Of a DNA stretch of 64,000 nucleotides, positions 6,899-56,629 are shown piece after piece. The notes below the pieces were generated by a model, which was not told the origin of the DNA, made no database searches, and saw only the letters and a list, made by a program, of their open reading frames with translations. The first letter of the stretch is position 1. The number at the start of each line of letters is the position of its first letter. Source of the stretch: Brachyspira intermedia PWS/A (GTDB taxonomy: Bacteria; Spirochaetota; Brachyspiria; Brachyspirales; Brachyspiraceae); contig NC_017243.1 of assembly GCF_000223215.1 (NCBI RefSeq), positions 3,100,001 to 3,164,000 on the forward strand, given 5' to 3'. The translations under genes were made by a program, and so were the position numbers.

Positions 6899-7636
6899 AT
6901 GGACAAAGATTTCAAACAACAATTTGATAAAGTAAAACATCTGCTTGTACCTAGTTTTGATTTGGATAAGCCTTTTAGAGATAAAAAATTTAATGATACA
7001 GAACTTGATATATTAGATATAGGAGAAGTTAATTTATCATCAGGAAAAATAATTGCCTGCGATCCTTTAGCATATATGTATGATGATCAAGTATCTCCAT
7101 TCATTCAAACTGTAAAGCCTAATAAATATAAAGTTTCGCTTCTTATAATAAAAGATGAAGAGAGAATTTCCATAGCTAAAATTTCTTTCTCTGATAAAGA
7201 ACCTAAAAGATATGAACTTGCCGTTACAGGAGAAGAAGATTTATCTGAAGTAGAAGAAGGAGAGTTTTTCGGATATCCTGTGGATGCTGGTATGGGTTGT
7301 TTTTGCGATTATGATGCAGCTAAAAAATATTTTGAATATGAAAACAAACTTGAAGAGGAAAGCGGAGGAGATTTTGATAACAGATACGATGATTTATTTT
7401 CCGACCTATTAGAAGATAATGCCAAAAAGAACCCTAAATATCAATCTGAATATGGTGATTGGCTTAATTGGAATGTACCTGAAAGCGATTCTAATATAGT
7501 ATTATTTACAAGCGGTTATGGTGATGGTTATTATCCTTCCTATTTTGCTTATGATGAAAATGACAATATATGTGCTTTATATACTATATTCATAGATTTA
7601 AACGATGAAGAAGATGAAGACTCTGATGATGAATAA
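6899..7636 (+). CDS. DUF4241 domain-containing protein
   Basis: A 245-residue soluble protein with no signal peptide. The C-terminal half carries the DUF4241 pattern: a glycine-rich DAGMGCFCD segment (near residue 126) and SGYGDGYYPSYFAYDENDN (near residue 205). The protein ends in a very acidic tail (DEEDEDSDDE). DUF4241 proteins occur in immunity and polymorphic-toxin neighbourhoods in other bacteria, but no toxin gene is visible here and no function is claimed. Start is supported by GGAG 9 bp upstream. The gene stands alone between the glycerol terminator and a large palindromic repeat. Confidence 0.75.
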   Translation: MDKDFKQQFDKVKHLLVPSFDLDKPFRDKKFNDTELDILDIGEVNLSSGKIIACDPLAYMYDDQVSPFIQTVKPNKYKVSLLIIKDEERISIAKISFSDKEPKRYELAVTGEEDLSEVEEGEFFGYPVDAGMGCFCDYDAAKKYFEYENKLEEESGGDFDNRYDDLFSDLLEDNAKKNPKYQSEYGDWLNWNVPESDSNIVLFTSGYGDGYYPSYFAYDENDNICALYTIFIDLNDEEDEDSDDE

Positions 7637-7670: not shown

Positions 7671-7990
7671 CTTGGGTGGGCATCTAAAAAATCTAATTTG
7701 ATAATAAAAAAAATTAAAGTTTATATTACAGATAGAAACTTTAAATATAGAGGGTGGGCAAATGTAATTAAGTTTTAAAACTTTAATTACATACCCGCCC
7801 TTTATCTTTTGTTATTTAAATTAATAATGTTACTTTTATTATCTTTACTGCTTAATTAGAAATTTTAGCACCCACCCTAGTTGTATTTAAATTTAAGACT
7901 TATTTACCGCACGAAGAATGATTTTATTAATATGAACTTAATTATTAATTCAAATTAAATTTATTATAAGAATGCATTTACCGTGCGTAG
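7671..7990. repeat. Palindromic intergenic element, copy 1 (G-arm, C-arm, CGCACG box)
   Basis: Begins 35 bp after the DUF4241 stop. Motif starts: GGGTGGG at 7674 and 7752, CCCGCCC at 7794, CCCACCC at 7871, CGCACG at 7908, CGTGCG at 7982. The inner part (7751-7800) is an imperfect hairpin of about 20 bp per arm. The outer arms are inverted copies of each other, dyad near 7776. The second dyad, between CGCACG and CGTGCG, is near 7948, 172 bp away. No gene lies in this stretch. Confidence 0.85.
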
Positions 7991-8170: not shown

Positions 8171-8370
8171 CCGCACGTTAAACTAGATTAACAATATAAT
8201 AAAAATTTGAATTGCAAATAAATCAATATATTTAGCTTTATTCTGCGTGCGTTGAGGATAATCTTAAATCTAATTAATGCTTGGGTGGGATTTAATTTTT
8301 CTGATTAATTTTTAATATAAATAAAATTCTTAATTGAAATTGAAGCCGTAAATTTTAAAGGGCGGGATTT
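8171..8370. repeat. Palindromic intergenic element, copy 2 (half element)
   Basis: CGCACG at 8172 and CGTGCG at 8246 (74 bp apart), GGGTGGG at 8283 (31 bp after the previous motif), GGGCGGG at 8360 (77 bp further). The expected C-arm is absent; the sequence then becomes plain AT-rich DNA up to the MITE-like segment at 8534. Confidence 0.8.
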
Positions 8371-8533: not shown

Positions 8534-8705
8534 TATATACTGAAAATTTTTAAGTTTGTCATTTTTTTATTCAACTTTTTCCCGCCGCACGCCACAGGCG
8601 GACTTCGTCAAAGAACCATACGAAGTACGCCTCACGGTGAAAGTGCAAGTATAAAATTAGTGTTAAACAATACTAATTTTATATGTGAAATAAATTAGTA
8701 AATAT
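8534..8705 (+). mobile_element. MITE-like element, left end (truncated copy)
   Basis: Starts with the family end TATATACTGAAAATTTTTAA, then the shared core (TTCAACTTTTTCCCGCCGC at about 8570-8588) and a conserved AAGTGCAAGTATAAAATTAG segment. No matching right end is seen before the MATE terminator. The 25 bp just before it (from 8510) resemble the right end of two other copies, so it abuts another decayed element. Confidence 0.55.
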
Positions 8706-8764
8706 GATTTCATTTATAAAATTGATATCTAGTACAAGTATAGTATTAAAATAAATTTTATATA

Positions 8765-8803
8765 ATAAAAAACGCCTGCACTTCTAAGAATAAAAGTGCA
8801 GGC
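8765..8803 (-). terminator. Intrinsic terminator of the MATE gene
   Basis: A perfect 10-bp stem, GCCTGCACTT (8774-8783) with AAGTGCAGGC (8794-8803), is followed on the minus strand by a T run. It is 28 bp after the MATE stop codon. Confidence 0.9.
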
Positions 8804-17861: not shown

Positions 17862-20264
17862 ATGAATATAGATGATAGAAAGAACATAGAAAGATTATTT
17901 GATTTAGGGCATGATGCTTTTATCAGTAAAGATTATGAAAAGTCTATTGAATATTTAGATGAAATTATCAATATTTATAATAAAGATATTATTGCATATT
18001 CAGACAGCGAATTTATTATATATAGCGATTCTTATGATAATGAAGATGATGAAGAAGGAAAAAATATAAATAATGAAGATATAAATACCACTCATGATAC
18101 TCTAGTAGATGTATACTATAATAGAGGACTATCATATTTTAATTTAAAAAAGTATGAGGAAGCTATTAAAGATTTTGATAAAGTCATAGAATTGTCACCT
18201 GATAAATCTAATGCCTACTACAATAGAGGGCATTCTAAATCATACTTAGGTCAATATGAAGAAGGAATCAAAGATTTCAAAAAAGTTTTAGAGTTTAATG
18301 AAGATGATGCTGAAGCTATATACTATATAGGATTAGGATATTTTTATTTGGGAAGATATGAGGAAGCTATAAAAAACTTTGATATATCTTTATTATTAGA
18401 TGATGAAATTGATGATGCATACTATTATAGAGGGCACTCTAAAAGATACCTAAATATGTATGAAGAGGCATTATCCGACTTTAATAAAGTTATACAATTA
18501 AGAGATGATGACAGCGATTCATATTATTCTAAAGGTTTAACTGAATTTTTCTTAGGGCTATATGAAGATGCTATTAATGATTTTGATAAAGCTATTGAAT
18601 TAGACGGCAATTATTCTAATGCATATTATTTCAGAGGGCTTACTAAAAACAGCTTAGAATTATACAAAGAGGCTATGGATGATTATAAAAAAGCATTAGA
18701 ATACGCCGATGAAGATAATATTATCAGTATATATAATGATATGGGACTTCTAGAATACAAATTAGGAAATTATAAAGAGGCTATCAATTATTATACTAAA
18801 ATTATAGAAATAAATGATGATATATACTATTCCTATTATAATAGAGCATTGGCTGAAGAGTCTTTGGAATTATATGAAGATGCTTTAGCCGATTATAGTA
18901 GAGCTATAGAATTAAATCCTGAAGATACTTACTCATACAACAATAGAGGACTCATAAAAAATGAAATGCAGATGTATGATGAAGCATTAGAAGATTATAA
19001 TAAAGCTATAGAACTAGAGCAAAACGATGCATATTTATACAATAACAGAGCCTTGCTTAAAGGAAGAATGCATTTATACAAAGAAGCTATAGAAGATTTT
19101 GACAAAGCTATTTCATTATACAGTGAAGATGCTGAATTCTATTATTATAGAGGACTTACCAACTCATACCTAAATGAATTAGATGAAGCTTTGAAATATA
19201 TAAACAAAGCCATAGAACTAGATTCTAAATATATTAATGCCTATAATGAAAGAGGGCTTATACATTATAGAAATACCGATTATAAATCAGCTATTAAAGA
19301 TTTCAAAAAAGTTATAGAGCTTGATAATGAAAGTGTATATGCTAATTATCATTTAGCTTTATCTTATGATGCTTTAGAAGAATATGAAACGGCTTTGAAA
19401 TATTATTCTAGAGTTATTGAACTAGATCCTACCACACCTGATCCATATTATAACAGAGCTTTAGCTGAAATTGAAATGGAATTATACAATGAGGCTATAG
19501 AAGATTTTTATAAAGTAATAGAGATTGATAATACCATAATGGACGCTTATTTTAATATAGGTATATGTTATGATTCTTTGAAAGAGCATCAAAAAGCTAT
19601 TGACTGCTACACCAAAGTTATTGAAGCTGATAAATCTTCTATTGATGCTTATTATAACAGAGGATTAAGCAAAGTAGAATTAAAACTTTATAATGAAGCT
19701 TTTGAAGATTATATAAGGGCTTTAGAAATTGATCCTAAATATGCTAATGCTTATAATGGCATAGGTTTTTCAAAGACAAAATATTCCAACAATGAATTTA
19801 AAAACGGCAACACTCAAAGGGCTATAGATTTACTTAATGATGCTTTATTATATTATGAAAAGGGTTTATCTTTAAAAATAAATGATAATTTAAATAACGC
19901 TTCAATTTATGACAGTATGGGCTATACTACTACAAAATTAGCCAATATTTATTTATCAATGAAAGATATGGACAATGCTTACAAATACTATAATAATGCT
20001 TTACTCTGTTTTAGAGAAGCTTTAAAACTAAATAGTAAACATGCTCTGGCTCATAATAGTATAGCGTACATTTATATACATTTAGACAAAATGAACAATA
20101 AAAATAATATTTTTAATGAAGAGGCTTACAAATATTTTTCTGATGCATACAGCTTTGCTAAAAAAGATGATAAAAAATTAATAGTAAAATGTATTACTTC
20201 ACTTGCAAAAGAAAATATAAAAACTGCTGTAGATTTTTGTGTTAATAACAATATAGAGTTTTAA
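17862..20264 (+). CDS. Large tetratricopeptide-repeat protein
   Basis: An 800-residue protein made almost entirely of TPR units of about 34 residues, with the recurrent signature YNRGLxxxxLxxYEEAIxDFDKAIEL, from about residue 85 to 760. There are around 18 repeats. No signal peptide or membrane segment is seen, so it is probably a cytoplasmic protein-interaction scaffold. An acidic, non-repeat insert occupies residues 50-85. Start is supported by GGAGTG 8 bp upstream. TPR proteins of this kind are numerous in Brachyspira; the partner is unknown. The stop codon is directly followed (4 bp) by a palindromic element rather than a classical terminator. Confidence 0.88.
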   Translation: MNIDDRKNIERLFDLGHDAFISKDYEKSIEYLDEIINIYNKDIIAYSDSEFIIYSDSYDNEDDEEGKNINNEDINTTHDTLVDVYYNRGLSYFNLKKYEEAIKDFDKVIELSPDKSNAYYNRGHSKSYLGQYEEGIKDFKKVLEFNEDDAEAIYYIGLGYFYLGRYEEAIKNFDISLLLDDEIDDAYYYRGHSKRYLNMYEEALSDFNKVIQLRDDDSDSYYSKGLTEFFLGLYEDAINDFDKAIELDGNYSNAYYFRGLTKNSLELYKEAMDDYKKALEYADEDNIISIYNDMGLLEYKLGNYKEAINYYTKIIEINDDIYYSYYNRALAEESLELYEDALADYSRAIELNPEDTYSYNNRGLIKNEMQMYDEALEDYNKAIELEQNDAYLYNNRALLKGRMHLYKEAIEDFDKAISLYSEDAEFYYYRGLTNSYLNELDEALKYINKAIELDSKYINAYNERGLIHYRNTDYKSAIKDFKKVIELDNESVYANYHLALSYDALEEYETALKYYSRVIELDPTTPDPYYNRALAEIEMELYNEAIEDFYKVIEIDNTIMDAYFNIGICYDSLKEHQKAIDCYTKVIEADKSSIDAYYNRGLSKVELKLYNEAFEDYIRALEIDPKYANAYNGIGFSKTKYSNNEFKNGNTQRAIDLLNDALLYYEKGLSLKINDNLNNASIYDSMGYTTTKLANIYLSMKDMDNAYKYYNNALLCFREALKLNSKHALAHNSIAYIYIHLDKMNNKNNIFNEEAYKYFSDAYSFAKKDDKKLIVKCITSLAKENIKTAVDFCVNNNIEF

Positions 20265-20265
20265 T

Positions 20266-20695
20266 TTACGCACGGTAAACTAAATAAAAAATATAAATTA
20301 ATTTAGTATTCAAATTTTGCTATATATAAAAATAGATAAAGCGTGCGGAGTATTAAATTAAAAATCTAATCTGCACTTGGGGGGGCTATAATTTCTTCAT
20401 TAGCTTTAAGTATAAATAAATTAAAAATTGCAGATTATAGCAATAAAAATAAAAAAGGGGGGTATGTAAATAAAGTTTTAAAATTTAATTACACTCGCCC
20501 ACCCTTTAGGCTTTTTACTTTATTCTGTCATCTATAAATTATTTTTCTTTTTAGTTTTAACATGTTATTTTAGCTGCCCACCCAAGATTTTTTTAAATTT
20601 ATAGCGAATATACCGCACGTTTAGTAAAGCTAAAAATATAAATTTATATTATAATAAAATTTCATTATGTTTTGAAATTTTGCTAACCGTGCGTT
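20266..20695. repeat. Palindromic intergenic element, copy 3 (complete, symmetric)
   Basis: The best complete copy. Motif starts: CGCACG 20269, CGTGCG 20342, GGGGGG 20379, GGGGGG 20457, CCCACCC 20498, CCCACCC 20577, CGCACG 20614, CGTGCG 20688. Every motif has a mirror partner around a dyad near 20480, giving a 425-bp imperfect palindrome. The intervals (73, 31-37, 78, 41, 79, 37, 74) match the other copies. It starts 4 bp after the TPR stop codon. Confidence 0.9.
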
Positions 20696-20719
20696 TAGAT
20701 ATATAGAATTTTTATCTAA

Positions 20720-20979
20720 TATATACTGAAAAATTTTCAGTTTGTCATTTTTTATTCAACTTTTTCCCGCCGCAAAAAGTTGCAAAAAGTGCAATTATAA
20801 AATTAGTACTAAATAACACTAAAATTATCTTACATGTAAGATAATTTATTAAATTAAAGACTAAATGCAGTCTTTTTGGTTCTTTGTGCCAACAAAATAA
20901 CTGGGGTTCGGGGCAAAGCCCTGAAAATATTTTGAATTAAAAAAATTATTTTAACAAAATATATTTGTTTCAGTATATA
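20720..20979. mobile_element. MITE-like element (260 bp), first of a joined pair
   Basis: Left end TATATACTGAA at 20720 and right end TTTCAGTATATA ending at 20979 are inverted to each other. The inside has the family core (TTCAACTTTTTCCCGCCGC, then about 90 bp shared with the copy at 22963-23255), a palindrome TCTTACATGTAAGA, and a GGGGTTCGGGGCAAAGCCC block. No open reading frame of gene quality is present. TA dinucleotides at both ends fit a TA target duplication. Confidence 0.7.
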
Positions 20980-21269
20980 CTAATAATTTTTAACTTTGTC
21001 AACCGATGCACTTTATATAGATATTATCTACTTTTTTGTCGTACAAAAAAGTAGCAAAAAACGCAATTGCTAAAACTTTATATTTTAAGAATATGTATCA
21101 AATATGGTGTAATACCATAATTTTAAGTCAAAAATGAAGTTGTTTTGGTTCTTTTATACCAATAAAACAACTTGGGGTTACGAAGTACTCAGAGCGGTGA
21201 GGAAAAGCAACCACAAACAATAAAACTAAAAACCTAAATTTTGGCAAACTTAAAAATTTTTAGTATATA
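20974..21269. mobile_element. MITE-like element (296 bp), second of a joined pair
   Basis: Inverted ends of about 29 bp: TATATACTAATAATTTTTAA (20974 on) and, at the right end, TTAAAAATTTTTAGTATATA (to 21269). The interior contains a hairpin around TCGTACAAAAAAGTAG and a TTGGTTCTTTTATACCAATA block that recurs at 32800 and, inverted, near 43110. It shares the TATATAC junction with the preceding element. Confidence 0.75.
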
Positions 21270-21273
21270 ATTC

Positions 21274-21315
21274 AAATTTCATTATGTTTTGAAATTTTGC
21301 TAACCGTGCGTTTAG
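21274..21315. repeat. Second copy of the right half of a CGCACG box
   Basis: These 42 bp repeat 20657-20698, which is the right half of the CGCACG/CGTGCG box in palindromic copy 3, with a 617-bp offset. The two direct copies bracket the pair of MITE-like elements. Confidence 0.8.
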
Positions 21316-22875: not shown

Positions 22876-23405
22876 TAACGCACGGTAAGTGAAATCTTAT
22901 AATATAATAAAATTTGTATTTATGAATAAATAAATATTTTAAATTTAATTCTGCGTGCGGTGTATATACCTAAAAAATTATATTTTGTCAATTTTATTTT
23001 TTATATTTTTATTATTTTCGGGAACTAGCCCCCGAACCCCCACTTCTTTTGGTGCCACAAAGAAGCTTATATCCTCGATAAACTCGGATACGCTTCGCGA
23101 AAGGCTATATTTGAACTTAAATGTAATAAATTATTTTACATGTAAGACAATTTTAGTATTATTTAGTACTAATTTTATACTTGCACTTTTTGCAACTTTT
23201 TGCGGCGGGAAAAAGTTGAATAAAAAAATTGACAAAGTTAAAAATTTTCAGTATACTCTAAAAATTTAAATAAATCTTGGGCAGGCAGCTAAAAATAACG
23301 GGTTAAAACTAAAAAGAAAAATAATTTAAAAATTACAGAACAAATTAAAAAGCCTAAAGGGCGGGCAAATGTAAGTAAATTTTAAAACTTAATACATACC
23401 CGCTC
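22876..23405. repeat. Palindromic intergenic element, copy 4, interrupted by a MITE-like insertion
   Basis: CGCACG at 22879 and CGTGCG at 22954 (75 bp), then a 293-bp MITE-like element (22963-23255), then GGGCAGG at 23279, GGGCGGG at 23359 and CCCGCTC at 23397. Removing the insertion brings CGTGCG and GGGCAGG to about 28 bp apart, close to the 31 bp of uninterrupted copies. The outer C-arm is missing where peptidase T begins. Confidence 0.8.
22963..23255. mobile_element. MITE-like element (293 bp) inserted in palindromic copy 4
   Basis: Left end TATATACCTAAAAAATTATA and right end AAAATTTTCAGTATA are inverted copies of the family ends. Inverted, its body matches the copy at 20720-20979 over about 110 bp from the TTCAACTTTTTCCCGCCGC core. 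TA at both borders fits a TA duplication on insertion. A plus-strand open frame inside it (22955-23269) looks fortuitous. Confidence 0.75.
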
Positions 23406-24732: not shown

Positions 24733-25030
24733 ACCCCGCCCTTTAATATTTTCTGCTTAATCTACACATTTTTACTTAAATTAACTTTATTGTTTTATTA
24801 CCCACCCAAGTGTTATTTAAATTTAAAAATTTATTTAATTGGCTATTTTTTATAATCAAAATTTTATTTTAATCAATATTTATAATTTTGTTCTGCATGC
24901 GGATTAGTATACAGCAAATTTAAATAAATCTAGGAGGAGCTATATTTTCAGATTAAGTAATTAAGAAAAAATAAACTTGAATTTTTATTTTGTATTAAGT
25001 AGGATAATGTGTGGCATTCATAATAAAGTT
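24733..25030. repeat. Palindromic intergenic element, copy 5 (decayed)
   Basis: CCCGCCC at 24735 and CCCACCC at 24801 are intact. The next box is decayed (TTGGCTA near 24838, then GCATGCG at 24895-24901). After it, AGGAGG near 24932 stands where GGGTGGG is expected, and GTGTGGC near 25012 stands for the second G motif, 79 bp on. The order and approximate spacing survive although most GC motifs have mutated. It ends at the terminator of the oxidoreductase genes. Confidence 0.6.
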
Positions 25031-32530: not shown

Positions 32531-32604
32531 TGGAGATAATGGGGCTCGAACCCACGACCCTCACAATGCCATTGTGATGCTCTCCCAAACTGAGCTATAT
32601 CCCC
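32531..32604 (-). tRNA. tRNA-Ala (anticodon GGC)
   Basis: Read on the minus strand it folds as a normal cloverleaf: acceptor GGGGATA/TATCTCC with the G3-U70 pair that marks alanine tRNAs, D-arm GCTC...GAGC, anticodon stem TCACA/TGTGA with loop ATGGCAT, a 5-nt variable loop, and T-arm GTGGG TTCGAGC CCCAT. The anticodon is GGC, reading GCC and GCT-type alanine codons. The discriminator is A. The terminal CCA is not encoded; the next bases form a T run that probably terminates the transcript. Confidence 0.95.
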
Positions 32605-35004: not shown

Positions 35005-35110
35005 AAAATCAATTACATACCCCACCCTTTATATTTACAATCTATTATGATGTTTTTATACTAATTTTCTTTTTTATTTTTACTGTTATTATAACTGCTT
35101 ACAAAATTTT
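35005..35110. repeat. Palindromic intergenic element, copy 6 (C-arm fragment)
   Basis: AATTACATACCCCACCCTTT (CCCACCC at 35021) is the C-arm start seen in other copies. A decayed CTGCTTACAAA about 76 bp later stands where the second CCCACCC is expected. No CGCACG box follows before trmD. Confidence 0.6.
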
Positions 35111-40451: not shown

Positions 40452-41051
40452 ATGACTGATAATGATTTTAATAAATTGATTAAATGGGCTAAAAAAAATG
40501 ATGCCTATAATATTATAAGTATGACTAAAAAACAAATAACTTCAGCAAAAGAATTAAATTTGAGTAACTTGGATATTGAGAGAGTGTCTTTAGAGATTTG
40601 TAAACTTACAAACATAGAAAAACTTTATTTATCTTTAAACTATATAGAAAAAATTCCAAAACAAATAAAAAATTTAAAAAAATTGAAAGTGCTTGATATA
40701 TCTGCTAATAATATAAAAGTTATTCCTAAAGAAATATTTGATTTAACAATGCTTGAGTATTTGAATATATCTAATAATTATATTGATGAAATTGATAATG
40801 ATATAGAAAAGCTCATAAACTTAAAAGAACTAGACATAAGCAGCTGCAATATATCTTCTCTTCCTGAAGGCATATTTAAATTATATAATATTGAATTTCT
40901 TGATATATCCTCCAATAAAATAAAAAAGATAGATAGTAAAATAAAAAATTTAGAAAATTTAGAAGAACTAATTATTGATTCAAACAAATTAAAAAGAATC
41001 CCTAAAGAGATAAATAATTTAAAAAAATTAAAGATATTGTCAATCTTTTAA
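40452..41051 (+). CDS. Leucine-rich repeat protein
   Basis: A 199-residue protein made of about six bacterial LRR units of 23 residues (LEYLNISNNYIDEIDNDIEKL, LKELDISSCNISSLPEGIFKL style), starting near residue 30. No signal peptide, so cytoplasmic. LRR proteins mediate protein binding; the partner is unknown. The second ATG (40452) is preferred because GAGGA at 40440-40444 is well spaced for it but overlaps the first ATG (40446). The stop codon is 3 bp before palindromic copy 7. Confidence 0.82.
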   Translation: MTDNDFNKLIKWAKKNDAYNIISMTKKQITSAKELNLSNLDIERVSLEICKLTNIEKLYLSLNYIEKIPKQIKNLKKLKVLDISANNIKVIPKEIFDLTMLEYLNISNNYIDEIDNDIEKLINLKELDISSCNISSLPEGIFKLYNIEFLDISSNKIKKIDSKIKNLENLEELIIDSNKLKRIPKEINNLKKLKILSIF

Positions 41052-41482
41052 ATCCCACCCTTTAGATTTAAAAGTTATCTCTGTATTGAAAAATTTTATT
41101 TATATTAAAAGCCAATTTAGAAAAAGCATACCCGCCCTAAATTTAATTAGATTTTTAATCTGCTTCACGCACGGTGAATCGGCTTTTTTATATAATCAAC
41201 ATGTTATTATTAATAAGCATATACTTATAGCTTAGCTTAGCGTGCGGTGAATGCATTATAAATTTAAAAAACTCTTGGGTGGGAAGCAAAAATAACTGAT
41301 AAAACTAAAAGGAAAAATAATTAAAAAATGACGGAATAAATTAAAAAGCATAAAGGGTGGGCAAATGTAATTAAATTTTAAAACTTAATTACATACCCCG
41401 CCCTTTTATATTTAAAGCTATATCTGCATTAAAAATTTTATTTGTTTTAATAGCTAACTTAGAAAAAGCATACCCGCCCTAG
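41052..41482. repeat. Palindromic intergenic element, copy 7
   Basis: Motif starts: CCCACCC 41054, CCCGCCC 41131, CGCACG 41168, CGTGCG 41241, GGGTGGG 41277, GGGTGGG 41355, CCCGCCC 41397, CCCGCCC 41473. It is mirror-symmetric around the CGCACG/CGTGCG centre (41207) and again around the G/C centre (41379). It fills the whole gap between the convergent LRR and rsuA-type genes, starting 3 bp after one stop and ending 22 bp before the other. Confidence 0.9.
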
Positions 41483-55889: not shown

Positions 55890-56092
55890 CCCCCACCCTT
55901 TAAGACTTGATAACCTACTTTTTAATTAAAACTTTATTAAGAATTTAAAACTTAGATTATATTTGTTGGCCCCCACCCAAGTTTTTTTAAATTTGAAATC
56001 TACCCAACGCACGTTTAATTTTATATTTTTACATCAAAAAATCATAATTATAAATTTCATTATAATTATGATTTTATTTAACGTGCGGTAAT
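55890..56092. repeat. Palindromic intergenic element, copy 8 (C-arm plus CGCACG box)
   Basis: CCCACCC at 55892 and 55974 (82 bp apart), CGCACG at 56008, CGTGCG at 56082 (74 bp). The middle of the box contains a further AT hairpin centred near 56055. The CGTGCG end lies 7 bp from the hpt stop codon (56101-56099), so on the hpt transcript this element takes the place of a terminator. Confidence 0.85.
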
Positions 56093-56098
56093 TTAGTT

Positions 56099-56629
56099 TT
56101 ATTCAACAACTCCAATATATGGAAGATTTCTGTATTTTTGAGCATAGTCAATTCCGTATCCTACAACAAATTCATCTTCAATATCAAAACCGTTATAATC
56201 TATCTTTATATCAACTTTTCTTCTTGAAGGTTTATTTAAAAGTGTGCATATTTTAAGAGAAGCAATATTTCTAGTTTTTAATACCTCACATATTTTCTCT
56301 AGAGTATATCCTGTGTCTATTATATCTTCTACTATAATAACATCTCTTCCTGTGAGAGGTATATCAACATCTTTAAGTATTTTAATTTCAGAACCTATTT
56401 TATTGTTTCCATAACTAGATACTATCATAAAATCAATTTCCACTGGTACATCAATATGTCTTGATAAATCAGCAATGAATATAAAAGAACCTTTTAAAAG
56501 TCCTATTATGCATGGTATGTTTTCTTTATCTTTAAGATCATTAGAGATTTGCTCTGCTAATTCTTTAACTTTCTTATTTATATCTTCTTCAGATATAAGT
56601 ACTTTTGATATATGCTCATCTTTTCTCAT
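56099..56629 (-). CDS. hpt: Hypoxanthine phosphoribosyltransferase
   Basis: Purine salvage: joins hypoxanthine or guanine to PRPP, giving IMP or GMP. The 176-residue protein has the PRPP-binding motif VIIVEDIIDTGYTL near residue 95, LLKGSFIFIADLSRHI near residue 43 and the C-terminal DEFVVGYGIDYAQKYRNLPYIGV, all typical of bacterial Hpt. AAGGA precedes ATG 56629. Confidence 0.94.
   Translation of the reverse strand: MRKDEHISKVLISEEDINKKVKELAEQISNDLKDKENIPCIIGLLKGSFIFIADLSRHIDVPVEIDFMIVSSYGNNKIGSEIKILKDVDIPLTGRDVIIVEDIIDTGYTLEKICEVLKTRNIASLKICTLLNKPSRRKVDIKIDYNGFDIEDEFVVGYGIDYAQKYRNLPYIGVVE

Follow-up and report, generated by a model that had tools for sequence, protein, structure and literature searches.

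Brachyspira species are gut spirochaetes. On the chromosome of Brachyspira intermedia PWS/A (3,304,788 bp), a palindromic series of short GC-rich motifs begins 2 bp past the stop codon of a TPR gene (17862-20264), and similar series recur nearby with the motifs at nearly the same distances and widely differing DNA between them. What holds these distances constant? An initial annotation proposed selection on geometry, as for a protein complex or a folded RNA, or an element spread by copying. The window referred to below is the whole stretch analysed, 64,000 nucleotides at chromosome positions 3,100,001-3,164,000, and coordinates given without a locus or genome are positions within it. The recurring spaced-motif element is confirmed as real. 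Its arrays are built from three modules, AB (CGCACG...CGTGCG), GG (GGGYGGG...GGGYGGG) and CC (the inverse of GG), with conserved linkers between them. The copies and parts in the window are the following.

20266..20695, no strand assigned: whole array AB-GG-CC-AB, spacings 73-37-78-41-79-37-74
20269..20347, no strand assigned: first AB unit of that array, CGCACG...CGTGCG, 73 bp start to start
20379..20463, plus strand: GG unit of that array, degenerate motifs GGGGGGG and GGGGGG
20464..20497, no strand assigned: GC linker of that array, palindromic core AAGTTTTAAAA
20498..20583, minus strand: CC unit (inverse GG) of that array, CCCACCC...CCCACCC
20614..20693, no strand assigned: second AB unit of that array, CGCACG...CGTGCG, 74 bp
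7674..7987, no strand assigned: GG-CC-AB array, 38 bp past the stop of gene 6899-7636
8172..8366, no strand assigned: AB-GG array, second copy within the convergent gap that also holds 7674..7987
22879..22959, no strand assigned: solitary AB unit
23278..23365, plus strand: decayed GG unit (GGGCAGG...GGGCGGG), following a second repeat family
24735..24807, minus strand: CC unit with spacing shortened to 66 bp, decayed AB/GG remnants continuing to ~24960
35021..35027, minus strand: isolated CCCACCC remnant preceded by half a GC linker
41054..41479, no strand assigned: CC-AB-GG-CC array between a convergent LRR gene (stop at 41051) and an rluD-like gene
55892..56087, no strand assigned: CC-AB array, 11 bp from the stop of gene 56099-56629

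The modules form a polar array with a period of ~345 bp, and copies are truncated at different points; the two frequent layouts, CC-AB-GG (~310 bp) and AB-GG-CC-AB (~425 bp), are both cut from this one periodic array. Conservation among copies is high in the B-G linker (~30 bp, core TAAATTTAAA) and in the G-C linker (~35 bp, core AAGTTTTAAAACTT) and much lower in the 67-72 bp fillers. The motifs lie where the initial annotation placed them, and only its letters for the copy at 20.3 kb need correction: the order given there is right, but G-runs replace GGGTGGG at both G positions, and CCCACCC occupies both C positions. The start-to-start distance from CGCACG to CGTGCG, described as near constant, is 74, 74, 73, 74, 75, 73 and 74 bp in seven pairs. 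The G-G and C-C distances are 76-80 bp (77-80 bp had been given for G-G) and the G-C distance is 41-42 bp, in agreement with the earlier estimate of about 42 bp for this centre; B-G and C-A start distances in the window are 36-37 bp. A tandem CC-AB run with a period of ~234 bp occurs at locus L210 (G010:C1:2493000-2496800) in a genome assigned putatively to B. pilosicoli.

The B. intermedia genome holds 129 exact CGCACG-N60-80-CGTGCG pairs and 0 matches to the reversed pattern; the same control is uninformative for the direct-repeat (G-G type) pattern, which is identical when read backwards. CGCACG/CGTGCG makes up 169 of the 256 complementary GC-rich hexamer pairs that lie 71-77 bp apart, compared with 0.2 expected from other offsets. 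The spacings are sharply distributed: in 60 genome loci together with the window, AB spacing is 72-77 bp in 89 of 93 cases, GG spacing 76-79 bp in 62 of 65 and B-G spacing 34-38 bp in 55 of 59. Across 393 genomes of Spirochaetota, only Brachyspira stands clearly above control levels. Pattern matches are found in 24 of 26 Brachyspira genomes, and 23 of the 26 carry the element. The two AB matches in genome G019 were discarded as coding-like DNA unlike the element, so that three genomes (G001, G003 and G019) are without it. Carrier genomes hold up to ~150 intergenic copies, and B-G matches number 96 in B. hampsonii, 47 in B. innocens, 18 in B. alvinipulli and 0 in B. catarrhinii. The only Rfam match in the window is a tRNA (32531-32604), and the element matches no Rfam family. 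The initial annotation knew of no description of the element; this holds for the Brachyspira repeat literature searched, and the parts consulted of the genome papers of B. intermedia PWS/A (PMC3163572) and B. pilosicoli (PMC2897892, PMC3532143) do not mention such a repeat.

Whether selection acts on the motifs and their distances was examined in orthologous gaps across sampled stretches of the B. intermedia genome (G000) and of genomes G004 and G007. Element motifs are kept in both genomes in 30 gaps and in one genome only in 8. For retained, alignable elements, in pairs chosen by motif presence (with both directions run) and with sites within one genome not fully independent, motif G/C identity between species is 0.889-0.916, filler G/C identity is 0.576-0.602 and element-free intergenic G/C identity is 0.629; whole-filler identity is 0.763-0.786, against 0.769 in element-free gaps. 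Thus, the filler evolves like ordinary intergenic DNA whereas the motifs do not. The distance between retained orthologous motifs changes by 1 bp or less in 91% of cases and by more than 3 bp in 5%, compared with 56% and 27% for control anchors 74 bp apart in element-free DNA and 77% and 11% for anchors 37 bp apart. Selection on geometry, that is, on the words and their spacing, with neutral filler, is therefore supported. Same-place elements with retained motifs are also recognisable between B. intermedia and the putative B. pilosicoli genome, for example near guaA, and filler in elements retained at the same place in other Brachyspira genomes (putative B. pilosicoli and B. murdochii) is ~60-70% alike while the motifs are kept. 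The AB-GG element ~100 bp upstream of the guaA start (L078 807-1098), kept in B. intermedia and the putative B. pilosicoli genome, has a possible regulatory role.

The element is also distributed unevenly. No AB unit lies inside an ORF in any sampled region. Convergent gaps account for 48 of 124 gaps with the element and for 84 of 628 gaps without it (odds ratio 4.1, p 5e-10), and gene 3' ends are 30 bp or less from an element edge in 46 of 150 cases, gene starts in 3 of 98. In B. intermedia, 52 of 78 GG pairs fall within 0.4 Mb of one chromosome pole, where 18.9 are expected (p 3e-15). Counted in 200-kb steps away from position 0, which is the published skew-based origin in a genus whose origin has been inferred and not mapped, GG pairs number 31, 21, 7, 7, 3, 4, 3 and 1. 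AB units number 37 in 0-0.4 Mb compared with 2 in 1.5-1.9 Mb (5.3 vs 0.45 per 10 kb of intergenic DNA). A putative B. murdochii genome (G009) has 37 of 44 blast matches within 0.4 Mb of its cumulative-skew minimum, as estimated from 20 samples (p 2e-16). The dnaA gene of B. intermedia (G000:C2:1329973-1330452) is 1.33 Mb from the skew-defined origin, and that of the putative B. murdochii genome is near the skew maximum. If dnaA marks the origin, the element-rich pole lies nearer the terminus. The parB gene is ~0.9 Mb away, a location that does not settle the position of the origin, and the sampled element loci contain no match to the parS consensus.

Among the options of the initial annotation, a protein complex on DNA is the best. 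Building on the established reality, range and placement of the element and on selection for its motifs and distances, we infer protein binding and a part in chromosome organisation. The reading that we tentatively favour, at somewhat less than an even chance, is an undescribed, BIME-like Brachyspira family of DNA-level protein docking arrays that has a chromosome-organising role and is kept by host selection. Paired GC-rich half-sites (CGCACG/CGTGCG at ~74 bp and GGGYGGG/GGGYGGG at ~78 bp) would be held apart by AT-rich spacers free of sequence requirements, and a putative dimeric or multimeric protein would dock on both motifs of a pair, spanning a constant stretch of DNA. The resulting nucleoprotein array may organise or buffer the chromosome region near the enriched pole through loops or supercoils, a role suggested by the genomic distribution. 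The copies would have arisen by duplication along a route that does not involve RAYT and may now be mostly inherited vertically. The three Brachyspira genomes that lack the element count against docking, since they show that the genus can do without it. So does the fact that the origin at the enriched pole is defined by skew, with dnaA elsewhere. The AB filler also lacks the 10-11 bp phasing that a DNA-wrapping complex might favour, and motif variants that change in concert, described below, are odd for a protein that reads one fixed sequence. A more specific version, in which more than 100 docking arrays spread through ~0.8 Mb around the replication pole mark a chromosome domain, as a macrodomain-type system unrelated to MatP, ParB and Noc that would read DNA by the distance between motifs rather than as continuous sequence, is unlikely.

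The motifs and spacing might instead serve a putative transposase, the element being purely selfish: a non-autonomous mobile element (MITE- or BIME-like) that brings the host nothing and survives where it does least harm, in convergent gaps. Spread by copying, one of the initial proposals, is supported: dispersed paralogous copies are ~70% alike and one locus underwent tandem expansion. A selfish origin also accommodates the strictly intergenic position of the copies, their presence or absence in different genomes, the element-free relatives within the genus and a clean gain or loss of ~225 bp, present only in B. intermedia, at the first end of an inversion of the 50.4-56.2 kb segment. Empty or decayed orthologous sites exist, and no target-site duplication was identified at them. 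However, a dead copy should lose motifs and filler alike, and orthologous, apparently old copies keep ~90% of motif G/C while their filler drifts. The strong gradient toward one chromosome pole also argues against a selfish element, as does the lack of machinery and carriers: the RAYT/Y1 transposase (PF01797) is found in 0 of 26 Brachyspira genomes and in 5 of 14 control genomes, and blastn finds no match to the element in phages or plasmids. The pattern has 80 matches in viral contigs, only one of them with AT-rich filler and that one unlike the element; these are chance matches in GC-rich contigs. The selfish reading is somewhat unlikely.

A transcribed RNA hairpin, acting as a bidirectional terminator or as a stabiliser of mRNA 3' ends, would account for the proximity to gene 3' ends and for the excess in convergent gaps, and the 6-bp GC stem of AB always closes in predicted RNA folds. 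Yet it closes equally with shuffled filler (88.4/89), and swapping arms gives stronger predicted folds. The mirror symmetry in the initial annotation holds at the level of the motifs, but the arms differ in sequence, which gives each array a polarity. Arm X continues CGCACG-CAGA and arm Y continues CGCACG-GTNA, so that the departure from a perfect palindrome is regular; sorting of arms into X and Y has a median log-likelihood ratio of 24.6, compared with 11-14 for shuffled arms. GGGT is commoner on X sides and GGGC on Y sides, the G2/C1 letters on the two sides of the GC centre read T/G or C/A in 23 of 23 cases listed, and adjacent dyads share polarity in 27 of 32 TG/CA cases. Polarity has no clear bias with replichore (34/21 and 15/15). 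Once arms are oriented, the filler has no covariation (observed pairing 0.535 vs 0.544 when shuffled, with 453 of 500 shuffles reaching the observed value), and complementarity between arms is lower within a copy than between copies. The AB stem has a mismatch at its first inner position in 85% of cases; only the 6-7 bp motifs are complementary, and the filler is unpaired. The co-varying stems envisaged at the outset are not supported, and an RNA hairpin or cruciform with paired filler is rejected by three tests (arm complementarity, folds with shuffled filler and covariation). Since the filler lacks base-pair covariation, long hairpin and cruciform readings are not supported and the element appears to work at the level of DNA rather than RNA. 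Some motif variants do change in concert and keep complementarity: CACGCG/CGCGTG at three independent loci, CGCATG/CATGCG at two and CGCCG/CGGCG at one, where nearly zero are expected. These favour a hairpin to some extent and hint at kept motif complementarity, but they are suggestive and not proof because one-sided single changes (7) are about equally common. With the element also lying between divergent genes (22 of the 124 gaps) and having no Rfam match, an RNA hairpin is quite improbable.

That the element is a site of recombination or inversion, of an integron attC or invertase type, at which DNA between two copies is flipped, is very improbable. In favour of this reading, the element is enriched at synteny breaks (8 of 15, compared with 22 of 145 collinear gaps, p 0.0016), lies at both ends of the 50.4-56.2 kb segment inverted in G007, is inverted in place between species in one case and has asymmetric, attC-like arms. 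Against it, the breakpoint signal is strong in G007 (p 0.001) and weak in G004 (p 0.19), most copies keep their place from one species to another, a single crossover point could not be mapped, and palindromes are known to provoke breaks with no dedicated enzyme. The element flipped in place lies between collinear flanks (L066 776-1218 vs L135 17153-17598).

A second repeat family, probably a separate MITE-like element, is found in the window at 8540-8800, 20719-21265 and 22995-23269, with ends like TATATACTGAAAATTTTTAAGTTTGTCA and an interior bearing CCCGCCGC. Its copies sit within or beside arrays; a GG unit that is unbroken in L107 is split by such an insertion in L120, and at 20700-21305 a second-family repeat is flanked on either side by an AB right end. 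In L106, L107 and L108, the rluD-like gene closes with codons (KSDFKSNKR*) that match the B-G linker, and element-free species end the gene differently, as if insertion of the element may have supplied a new C-terminus.

The arrays can be compared with several known systems. The sites of matS/MatP and parS/ParB are many, short and concentrated in one chromosome region, a crowding that the Brachyspira motifs share; unlike these sites, the motifs are paired at fixed spacing, consensus parS is missing from the loci and parB is distant. ERIC, RPE and the intergenic repeats of Borrelia and Neisseria are imperfect palindromes of 100-400 bp whose whole length is conserved as a hairpin. The Brachyspira element is likewise an intergenic imperfect palindrome, but it is conserved only in spaced short motifs and matches no Rfam family. 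The closest likeness is to the REP/BIME elements with RAYT transposases of E. coli, Pseudomonas and Stenotrophomonas (PMC2817692): more than 100 extragenic copies (129 AB units, none within ORFs in the sampled regions), regularly spaced modules that alternate in orientation and are joined by conserved linkers, palindromic motifs that have complementary variants, and mosaic, truncated arrays. In contrast to REP/BIME, no RAYT/Y1 transposase is found in the 26 genomes, the motif pairs are 74-80 bp apart over unpaired AT-rich spacer where a REP is a hairpin of 20-40 nt, the GTAG/GTGG head is missing and the modules are far larger. The element is BIME-like in form and yet lacks two defining features, RAYT in the genus and a hairpin REP. 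Gyrase-binding BIME-2 elements, with a gyrase motif and ~10.75-bp GC phasing, are also intergenic and strand-symmetric, with a suggested role in genome organisation and an expected need between convergent genes (PMC6379681). Strong gyrase sites have AT/GC phasing of ~10.5 bp over ~130 bp; the AB filler, the only filler considered here, has none (AA/TT power at 10.5 bp 0.20 vs 0.29 in element-free DNA).

The family is carried by most of this well-sampled genus and appears to have been missed in the Brachyspira genome papers, as far as the parts consulted extend, because one copy resembles another in nothing but short, spaced words. It offers a clear natural example of selection for a distance and a few bases, with the intervening DNA evolving at the neutral intergenic rate. 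The element marks likely breakpoints of many Brachyspira inversions. If the docking reading is true, the arrays would provide a handle on the organisation of the spirochaete chromosome and on the disputed location of its origin, for which skew and dnaA disagree.
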